From a bacterium (GTDB taxonomy: Bacteria > Armatimonadota > Zipacnadia > Zipacnadales > UBA11051), in NCBI GenBank assembly GCA_021372615.1, contig JAJFUB010000026.1:1-64000 (forward strand): DNA of 64,000 nucleotides, read 5' to 3'. Below the pieces are notes generated by a model. That model was given only the letters and a program-made list of their open reading frames with translations, made no database searches and had not been told where the DNA came from. The position numbers and the translations under genes were made by a program. Shown here in pieces: positions 38,189-44,504 of this stretch. The stretch's first letter is position 1. Every line of letters begins with the position of its first letter.

Positions 38189-38872
38189 ATGCGCAGGGGA
38201 TTCACGCTCATCGAGTTGCTGGTGGTGATCGCCATCATTGCCATCCTGGCGGCGATCCTCTTCCCGGTGTTCGCCAAGGCCCGCGAGAAGGCGCGCCAGG
38301 CCAGTTGTCTGAGCAACATGCGCCAGATCGGCCTGGCGATCCAACAGTATGCCGGGGACTATGACGAGGTCATGTTGCCTCTGGCAACGACGGCTCAGGC
38401 GGGTTACTACTATGTGAATGGCACCTGGTCTCCCGGCCCCTCGTCGCAGCTATGGCCGCAACTGATCTACCCGTACGTCAAGAACCTCCAGGTGTTCCAC
38501 TGCCCCAGCCAGGGCACAGGCACCGACCAGGGCTGGTTTGGCGGCTACCCCTCGCGCTCGTGCTATGGCTGCATCTCCTACAACCTGAGCTACCCGCCGA
38601 ACTGGGACTTGACCCTGAGCATCTACACGCGGCCCTCGGAGACGGTCCTGATCGGCGACAGCGAGGCGCGGGACACCACCGGGCGAGGCTTCTACCTGCT
38701 GCAGTGGCCGCCGTGGGACACCGGTAGCCAGTCCAGCCGCGGCCGGTGGGCGGATCGGCACAACAACGGCTGCAACGCTGTTTTCGCCGATTGCCACGCC
38801 AAGTGGATACAGGGCTCCTCCATCAAGGCGTATTCGGCCAGCGACCCCATGTGGTCGCCGTCGGTGCCGTAG
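38189..38872 (+). CDS. Type II secretion/type IV pilin-like pseudopilin (DUF1559-like), second copy
   Basis: 227 residues from ATG 38189 (AGAGGAG 8 nt upstream, inside the lacI-like gene's end). Leader MRRG, then [20 protein letters not shown] and [20 protein letters not shown], nearly the same N-terminal block as the copy at 15342-15995. The C-terminal part differs ([33 protein letters not shown] replacing the usual DGH). It is a PilD-processed envelope protein, here co-expressed with a LacI regulator and a secreted propeller protein. Confidence 0.9.
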
Positions 38873-42411: not shown

Positions 42412-42561
42412 GCCGTGGGTGGCGCGCCGTGTGCGCCGGGCCCCACGGCTGGCGGCGGGGCCTGGCGCACACGACGCGCCACCCGCCGCCTGAGCTTTTC
42501 TGAACCCTTTGCTCCCCGTCGGTGTTCAACCCCCTGACATCGGCCATTCTGGCTTCGCGCG

Positions 42562-43140
42562 ATGGATGTCATGTGCAGTGACCAGGACCTGATGGCGAGG
42601 CTATGTGAGGGTGACCAGGAAGCCTTCGGCCTCCTGGCCCAGCGCCACAAGGACTGGCTGACCCGCCTCCTGTACCATCTGTTCTGGAACCACGAAGAGG
42701 CCGAGGACGGCGCGCAGGAAGTGCTGCTGCGGTTGTGGCTGGCGCGCCGAACGTATGAGCCGACGGCGAACCTGCGCACCTTTCTGTTCACGATTGCCCG
42801 CAACTACTGGCACAACCGCAGCACGCGGGTGATCCGCCGGACGCACGCGGCGACGCTGGAGGAGCAGTTCGGGCCCAATGCCCGGCGGGTGATCGAGGAG
42901 TTGGCGGACGAGTCGCCGACACCGGAGCACATCGTGATGCAGCGCCTCGAGCAGCACCGACTCCGCCGGGCGGTCAACACGTTGCCGGAGAAGCAGCGGC
43001 TGGTGTTCGTGATGAGCCACTTCCTGGACATGCGCTACCGGGAGATAGGGGAGACGCTGGGGGTGCCGGAGGGGACGGTCAAGTCGCGCATGGCGACGGC
43101 GGTGGCGACGCTCCGCGTGAGATTGGGTGAGGAACGATGA
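42562..43140 (+). CDS. ECF-type sigma-70 family sigma factor
   Basis: 192 residues. Region 2: DQEAFGLLAQRHKDWLTRLL, NHEEAEDGAQEVLLRLWLAR, TANLRTFLFTIARNYWHN. Region 4: LPEKQRLVFVMSHFLDMRYR, EIGETLGVPEGTVKSRMATA. No region 3, so ECF class. ATG 42562 has no good ribosome site. The stop overlaps the next ATG (ATGA), which encodes an anti-sigma-type zinc finger fused to a secretion ATPase. That coupling is the usual layout for a sigma factor and its cognate anti-sigma factor. About 150 bp of upstream DNA shows no certain promoter. Confidence 0.92.
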   Translation: MDVMCSDQDLMARLCEGDQEAFGLLAQRHKDWLTRLLYHLFWNHEEAEDGAQEVLLRLWLARRTYEPTANLRTFLFTIARNYWHNRSTRVIRRTHAATLEEQFGPNARRVIEELADESPTPEHIVMQRLEQHRLRRAVNTLPEKQRLVFVMSHFLDMRYREIGETLGVPEGTVKSRMATAVATLRVRLGEER

Positions 43141-44504
43141 AATGCGATACGTGTCGCGAGTTGCTGACGGCGTACCTGAAGGCCGAGCTGGAGGGGGCAC
43201 AGGTCGCCGAAGTAGAGGAACACCTGGCGACGTGCGCCGAGTGCGCGCAGGAATGCGAAGGGGCGCGGAAGGTGCTGGCCCGACTGGATTCTGCCAGCGA
43301 AGAGCCCGTCATGCGGATCGCTGCGACGGTCGTGGAGAAGGCCTTCGAGCGGCGCGCCAGCGACATCCACATCCGCCACATCGGCGAAAAGTGCAAGGTC
43401 TTCATGCGCATTGACGGGGTGATGCACGAAGCGATCCTGCTGCCCGAGTACGTACACCGGCCGCTCGTGGACCGCCTCAAGATCATGGCCGACATGAAGC
43501 TGACAGTCAGCAACGCGCCGCAGGATGGCCGCATCATGACGGAGGTGCAGGGCAAGAAGCTCGACCTGCGCGTCTCGGTGGTGCCCACCGCGACCGGCGA
43601 AAGCCTGGTCATTCGTCTGCTGGACTCCTCGTGCATCCGTCTCAGCCTCGACGAAGTGTACCTCGTCGGGGAGCAGCGCGCGCAACTGGACGATCTGCTG
43701 CATCGCCCCAGCGGCCTCATCGTCGTCACGGGCCCGACCGGCAGCGGCAAGACTACGACCCTGTATGCCATCCTGCACGAGTTGAACCGCCCGGCAGTGC
43801 ACTGCATGACCATCGAGGACCCGATCGAGTACCTGATCGAGGGCGTTACGCAGATCCCCGTCAACCGGGCCGCCGGCATGGACTTCCGGGCCGCGATGCG
43901 GGCGATCATGCGCCAGGACCCCGATGTCATCATGTGCGGTGAGATCCGGGATCAGGAGACGGCGGAACTGTGTTGCCAGGCAGCCATGACCGGACACCTG
44001 GTGCTCACGACGTTGCACACCGATGACGCCATCAAGGCCGTCAGTCGGTTGCTGGACATCGGCCTGCCGCGCTTCATCATCACCTCCACGCTGCTGGGCG
44101 CGACCGCTCAGCGGTTGCTGCGCAAGCTCTGCCCGGTGTGCAAGGAGGAGTACGACCCGCGGGCGGAGAGTTCGGCGCCGGGACTGGCGCAAGCGGCGAA
44201 CGAGGAGGCGTGGCTACGCGAGGCGGGACTGACGGAGCTGCCCGGGAAGCTGTGGCGAAGCAAGGGCTGTCCGGAGTGCCATGGCTCGGGCTTCCGCGGG
44301 CGGCTGGCCATCTACGAGGTCTTCACGATGGATCAAGATGTCCTAACGGCGATGGCCGTCAAGCGGGCCTCGCTGGAGGAAGTCGAGCGTCTCGCGGCGA
44401 CGAAGGTCAAGTCGCTCAAGCAGGTGGCGTTGGGGAAGATCCTGGGCGGCGACGTACCCGTCGCCGAGGCAATGCGGATGCTGATGTACCTGCCGGAGTA
44501 CTGA
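43137..44504 (+). CDS. Fusion of anti-sigma zinc finger (zf-HC2) with GspE/PilB-type secretion ATPase
   Basis: 455 residues. Residues 1-45 are an anti-sigma zinc finger: C3, C6 and H29-x3-C33-x2-C36 (HLATCAEC). Residues about 60-455 are a GspE/PilB ATPase: RRASDIHIRH, Walker A GPTGSGKTTT (199-208), IEDPIEYLI, Walker B RQDPDVIMCGEIRDQETAE, His box TGHLVLTTLHTDDA, and the tetracysteine zinc site CPVC...CPEC with GFRGRLAIYEV. The usual GspE N1 domain is missing; the zinc finger takes its place. It overlaps the ECF sigma gene by 4 bp. Inference: ATPase state could set sigma-factor release. A hairpin follows the gene. Confidence 0.9.
   Translation: MKCDTCRELLTAYLKAELEGAQVAEVEEHLATCAECAQECEGARKVLARLDSASEEPVMRIAATVVEKAFERRASDIHIRHIGEKCKVFMRIDGVMHEAILLPEYVHRPLVDRLKIMADMKLTVSNAPQDGRIMTEVQGKKLDLRVSVVPTATGESLVIRLLDSSCIRLSLDEVYLVGEQRAQLDDLLHRPSGLIVVTGPTGSGKTTTLYAILHELNRPAVHCMTIEDPIEYLIEGVTQIPVNRAAGMDFRAAMRAIMRQDPDVIMCGEIRDQETAELCCQAAMTGHLVLTTLHTDDAIKAVSRLLDIGLPRFIITSTLLGATAQRLLRKLCPVCKEEYDPRAESSAPGLAQAANEEAWLREAGLTELPGKLWRSKGCPECHGSGFRGRLAIYEVFTMDQDVLTAMAVKRASLEEVERLAATKVKSLKQVALGKILGGDVPVAEAMRMLMYLPEY

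Follow-up and report, generated by a model that had tools for sequence, protein, structure and literature searches.

In the flagellar checkpoint of FlgM and FliA, the state of a secretion machine governs a sigma factor through an anti-sigma factor, and FlgM itself is exported. To read the cell envelope, anti-sigma factors usually rely on a membrane segment together with a small sensor domain. The class I factors of the zf-HC2 type, encoded after an ECF sigma gene, begin with a three-helix domain containing an Hx3Cx2C motif, and in the known ones this domain is followed by a membrane helix or by a small sensor domain. We found no secretion ATPase named as an anti-sigma sensor domain in the main text of PMC7406223. 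A connection between such an ATPase and sigma activity has been described for Bacillus subtilis, where the activity of sigma G depends on the ATPase motifs of SpoIIIAA, a type II/IV-like secretion ATPase (PMC2703783).

Here we describe a two-gene unit in which an ECF sigma gene is followed by a gene whose product joins a zf-HC2 finger to a secretion ATPase of the GspE/PilB type. It lies in the window, that is, the whole stretch of 64,000 nucleotides analysed here, which derives from a 6.4-Mb assembly of 171 contigs belonging to the class Candidatus Zipacnadia, assigned to the Armatimonadota (PMC10290634). The fusion product resembles the zf-HC2 class I anti-sigma factors in its N-terminal three-helix Hx3Cx2C domain, in the position of its gene after an ECF sigma gene and in its sequence and fold matches, but it continues into a full secretion ATPase. 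With the FlgM/FliA checkpoint it would share the logic that leads from machine state to anti-sigma factor to sigma factor; whereas FlgM leaves the cell, the brake proposed here would belong to the motor and remain inside. SpoIIIAA likewise ties a secretion ATPase to sigma activity (PMC2703783), although it has no anti-sigma fusion, works in a sporulation complex that spans two membranes and concerns another class of sigma factor. By sequence, the fusion belongs to the zinc-type class I anti-sigma factors, with a sensor part that is new, and is a putative inhibitor of its neighbour. We found no description of a zf-HC2 + T2SSE architecture in the main texts of the openly available papers searched. 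With a probability of roughly 0.55, we interpret the unit as an ECF sigma factor and a class I zinc anti-sigma factor that has captured a GspE/PilB-type ATPase as its sensor, with release of sigma governed by the state of the ATPase. The unit and its predicted promoter comprise the following features.

42502..42529, + strand: predicted sigma-dependent, autoregulatory promoter, GAACCCTT ... GTTCAA, with the motif AAC[CA]-N15-17-GTT
42562..43140, + strand: ECF sigma factor of 192 aa (Pfam Sigma70_r2, E 2.4e-13; Sigma70_r4_2, E 2.7e-16)
43137..44504, + strand: zf-HC2/T2SSE fusion of 455 aa, the candidate anti-sigma ATPase (Pfam; AlphaFold2 mean pLDDT 91)
43137..43295, + strand: predicted anti-sigma domain of the fusion, residues 1-53, three helices with the zinc ligands C3, H29, C33 and C36 (Pfam, PDB profile and Foldseek)

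The initial annotation described an ECF sigma gene that overlaps the fusion gene through ATGA; the overlap of the sigma stop codon with the start of the fusion gene is confirmed by reading the sequence, and the ECF assignment by the two Pfam matches. The sigma factor has Sigma70 regions 2 and 4 but lacks region 3, within about 190 aa, and scores 98 bits against TIGR02937 (cut-off 42.9). On a profile built from the sigma factors linked to such fusions it reaches 274 bits, and the next ECF of its own genome 141 bits. Pfam recognizes two domains in the fusion protein. The first, zf-HC2, covers residues 3-37 (E 8.9e-8, improving to 1.6e-9 when only residues 1-65 are searched), and the second, T2SSE, covers residues 53-447 (E 3.4e-114); N1/MshEN (PF05157) gave no match. 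MshEN does precede T2SSE in the one canonical PilB-like protein of the same genome that was tested (E 1.9e-18). The proposal that the finger replaces the usual N1 domain thus holds, with the finger at the N-terminus and no MshEN match; sensing of c-di-GMP via MshEN is unlikely, as that domain is absent. Elsewhere, the genome encodes a further four GspE/PilB-family proteins, all longer, along with several PilT-like proteins. Because these longer proteins exist, the tested one with MshEN, we regard the fusion as an extra paralogue and not as the housekeeping motor.

The N-terminal part of the fusion has the properties of a class I zinc anti-sigma domain, namely a three-helix fold (helices predicted at residues 3-14, 21-32 and 34-53 by DSSP on the AlphaFold2 model), an Hx3Cx2C motif with an upstream Cys, and a zf-HC2 score above the cut-off. 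Its gene also stands next to an ECF gene, as is the case in 18 of the 19 fusion loci found (see below), the exception being that of genome G006. Of the five zinc-finger residues first listed, C3, H29, C33 and C36 are borne out by their invariance in 18/18 aligned fusions, but C6 varies. A profile of residues 1-75 compared with the PDB gave RslA (E 4e-5), RsiW (E 1e-3) and ChrR (0.04) as leading matches. When the model of the same residues was searched with Foldseek, the best 12 matches were all anti-sigma domains, among them RslA, RskA, RsiW, MucA, DdvA and ChrR, and most of the 12 came from structures complexed with sigma; RseA ranked 16th. Since the domain is small, the single Foldseek E-values are weak (>0.1), and it is the agreement within the list that serves as evidence. 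The possibility that residues 1-60 form an ordinary GspE N1 domain is rejected, given the missing MshEN match, the anti-sigma domains as best structural matches and the occurrence of the finger in sigma-linked loci in all cases except G006. From its likeness in sequence and fold to solved complexes of sigma and anti-sigma factors, we infer that the domain would bind and silence its cognate sigma factor, a well-supported part of our reading. Other ECF genes sampled in the same and two related genomes adjoin zf-HC2 genes whose products, judged by eye, continue into a hydrophobic stretch. The combination of ECF and zf-HC2 is therefore the local rule, and the fusion occupies the slot of a membrane-anchored anti-sigma factor.

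The remainder of the protein carries the following features, which it shares with the PilB/GspE ATPases as N2 domain and core.

43296..43625, + strand: N2-type domain, its first helix (residues 56-71) directly after the finger helices (DSSP of the model)
43731..43754, + strand: Walker A motif GPTGSGKT, residues 199-206 (no variation among the fusions at G199, P200, G202, G204, K205 and T207)
43809..43823, + strand: Asp box TIEDP with E227 (kept in 16/16 fusions of the census)
43917..43952, + strand: Walker B motif DPDVIMCGEIRD with E269 (present in the window copy)
44013..44027, + strand: His box LHTDD with H294 (kept in 16/16 fusions)
44130..44279, + strand: tetracysteine site C332/C335 ... 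C378/C381 (conserved save for one change of C332 to H)

All catalytic motifs (Walker A and B, Asp box, His box and tetracysteine site) are intact in the window fusion. The reading of this part as a full GspE ATPase is correct as far as the motifs go, but the scores lie below the NCBIfam equivalog cut-offs both for GspE (441.6 vs 630.25) and for PilB (391 vs 675.65). On these scores, the ATPase part is best classified as a generic PilB/GspE core and not as a certified GspE; its leading Foldseek matches are PilF/PilB of T. thermophilus and PilB of Geobacter. It differs from the PilB/GspE ATPases not only in these scores, in its linkage to an ECF gene and in having an anti-sigma domain instead of N1/MshEN, but also in its longer terminal branches, which measure about 0.5-2 changes per site in most fusions against about 0.1-0.4 in most ordinary ATPases. 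The Walker-B Glu has been lost in 4 of 16 fusions and in 0 of 62 canonical ATPases, which means that the fusions cannot all be active motors. The retention of nucleotide binding, with hydrolysis residues relaxed in some copies, is more in keeping with a switch than with an obligatory motor, and copies with intact motifs may still act as motors. In other class I anti-sigma factors, the helix after the finger would reach sigma. The corresponding helix here (residues 56-71) belongs to N2, near the point at which canonical homologues start to align, and, judging from one model, would physically link the anti-sigma and ATPase functions.

The zinc ligands also invite a different explanation, in which the finger would sense thiol oxidation or metal, as in RsrA or ChrR, and the ATPase would be a soluble carrier or a response effector. 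Besides the invariance of the ligands across the fusions, the fast evolution of the ATPase part and its partial loss of the Walker-B Glu agree with such a redox or zinc sensor, as does the enrichment of zinc motifs in soluble class I anti-sigma domains (about 72% according to PMC7406223). However, zinc is also structural in a known case, RsiW (PMC7406223), and a mere carrier would not need the Walker A residues, the Asp-box Glu and the His-box His that persist without exception among highly diverged copies. We consider this explanation distinctly unlikely and retain the ATPase as the sensor.

A search for the same domain order with a count of ECF neighbours, as suggested in the initial annotation, identified 19 zf-HC2-T2SSE fusions among 291 Armatimonadota genomes, carried by 18 genomes from 10 families, and an ECF gene directly upstream of 18 of the fusions. 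For this search we used a profile built on residues 1-163, on which fusions align from position 1 or 2 and ordinary ATPases mostly from about 44-54 onward. One genome (G255) holds two fusions, the fusion of G031 is frameshifted in its assembly, and G035 was counted as ECF-linked with a frameshifted ECF gene. Sigma and fusion genes mostly overlap or are separated by a gap of a few bases. The linked sigma factors score 274-293 bits on their profile, compared with at most 169 for other ECFs in the three genomes searched. No relative of the linked sigmas was found at about 62 ordinary pilB/gspE loci used as a control (most with flanks of about 1.5 kb on either side); the only four matches within this set were fusion loci, included by origin. 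At the one unlinked locus, in G006 (L063 4458-4810), the fusion and, shortly upstream, the promoter motif GAACCTTCCGTCGCCCCTTGCGTT have been kept, and an adjacent ECF gene is absent: the 350 bases 5' of the fusion gene contain no ECF, and the rest of this 87%-complete assembly contains none of the linked type. The DNA upstream of the G006 fusion resembles dispersed repeat sequence. A scan of contigs with the window protein as query returned one fusion, apparently on the same contig as that of G006.

The sporadic occurrence of the fusions, in 18 of 291 genomes, might suggest that they arose by chance or in assembly and share no function. This is very improbable and we reject it, because the fusion occurs at 19 separate loci with invariant zinc ligands and with conserved promoter and gene order; a single origin of the fusions, as against several independent ones, is moreover not rejected (AU p 0.19 for one clade). 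Given the ATPase distances, those of zinc finger and sigma factor are weakly correlated (r 0.32, permutation p 0.02, with shared ancestry uncorrected).

ECF promoters typically have AAC in the -35 element. The motif AAC[CA]-N15-17-GTT is present upstream of 15 of the 18 linked sigma genes (mean 0.8 and maximum 4 in shuffled sequences), and the remaining three loci carry ATT at -10. Across loci the consensus reads GAACCTTT ... cGTTctA and is mostly located 54-63 bases 5' of the start codon; for the second copy of G255 (L118), both start codon and promoter site are uncertain. The conservation of GAACCTTT-N-cGTT upstream of the pair, in the form of an ECF promoter, suggests autoregulation, and the sigma/fusion circuit looks autoregulated on this evidence. 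The exact pattern occurs once in the source genome, at 42502, 5' of the sigma gene, and in the cluster around G289 the zero-mismatch sites of the full motif are sigma promoters only. A scan with a sequence profile gave the same picture, with few other sites reaching the scores of the sigma promoters, whose high rank is by construction since most of them trained the profile. Owing to its shortness, the profile misses the site in the source genome altogether.

The initial annotation proposed mapping the sigma regulon for pilin or pseudopilin promoters. Control of such genes has found no support so far, as zero-mismatch sites of the full motif lie only 5' of the sigma gene, and across about a dozen genomes searched for a pilin regulon with promoter patterns and profile, at the stringency applied, essentially the only convincing site was the sigma factor's own promoter. 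A looser pattern gave scattered matches in G271, G275, G289, G035 and G010, mostly at rates little above those of the reversed control, and the genes that follow these matches, where they could be called, have no common theme and include no pilin. A site with two mismatches, GAACATTTTCATTT-N-GCGTCTTA, is conserved before a secreted protein in G286, G287 and G290 (L164, L167 and L168, at about 1500). Its -10 element differs, so that it may be a target of another ECF.

In the mechanism that we favour, with the captured ATPase as sensor, the three-helix zf-HC2 domain would bind and silence the sigma factor, and the ATPase would have given up its N1 docking domain for the anti-sigma domain that sits in its place. 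The sigma factor would be exposed or set free when the ATPase changes, whether by docking to a GspF/PilC-like platform, by assembling into a hexamer or through its nucleotide state, and once free it would transcribe its own operon from the GAACCTTT-N-cGTT promoter. More sigma factor and more anti-sigma ATPase would then be made, closing a self-limiting loop. The unit is a genuine and conserved, apparently undescribed variant of ECF/anti-sigma signalling, in which a whole secretion-type ATPase takes the place of the customary membrane segment and small sensor domain. This presumed sensor has been kept across scattered lineages of one phylum, along with the sigma gene and the promoter, and points to a reuse of GspE/PilB-family ATPases as regulators, some of them without a full Walker B motif.

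Most fusion pairs, including that of the window, stand without adjoining pilus or secretion genes, and a pilus/T2SS gene set is lacking at most loci, with L114, L118 and L122 as exceptions. No prepilin-like genes were found beside the fusions outside the window. The window itself has two prepilin-like genes with near-identical N-termini, at 38198 (+) and 15983 (-). At the second copy of G255 (L118 8373-10223) and in G065 (L122 1-1593), an overlapping third gene encodes T2SSF (GspF-like) fused to T2SSE. In G289 (L114 6723-9821), the sigma/fusion pair is divergent from pilM-pilN, and a canonical pilB-like gene is located slightly further away. The two GspF-GspE third genes and the pilM-pilN locus hint most clearly at a sensor that reads a membrane platform, and they make engagement of the motor a plausible trigger of release. 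The stronger proposal of a direct switch from motor to gene, in which the pilus- or secretion-type ATPase is itself the anti-sigma factor and is made to free sigma by platform docking or by its hexamer or nucleotide state, is put forward tentatively, as possible rather than probable. If true, it would be the counterpart, in type IV pilus and type II systems, of the FlgM checkpoint, but would work without any intermediate that is exported or cleaved. With motor state as the trigger it would offer a model for the direct coupling of pilus or secretion machinery to transcription, and the two genes with their one promoter would be a ready-made test system.

The platform-like GspF-GspE genes next to two of the pairs are also what would be expected if the circuit controlled the copy number of the motor, a narrower form of the favoured explanation with the motor itself as the output. 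The fusion would then be a working motor, of which the undocked ATPase holds the sigma factor and the docked ATPase frees it, so that supply follows demand. This agrees with the complete catalytic motifs of the window protein and with the own promoter as sole strong predicted target. It is nevertheless doubtful, as canonical ATPases are encoded elsewhere in the same genome and in its relatives, four fusions miss the Walker-B Glu, and platform or pilin genes are found near few loci. Release by the state of a sensor ATPase, whatever the output, remains our preferred reading of the unit. In G271 (L121 5438-6604), a second T2SSE ATPase without N1 or finger follows immediately downstream and is the sister of the fusion in the tree. 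The fusion of platform and motor (GspF-GspE) is unusual in its own right, and its copy at L118 has a degenerate Walker A motif.
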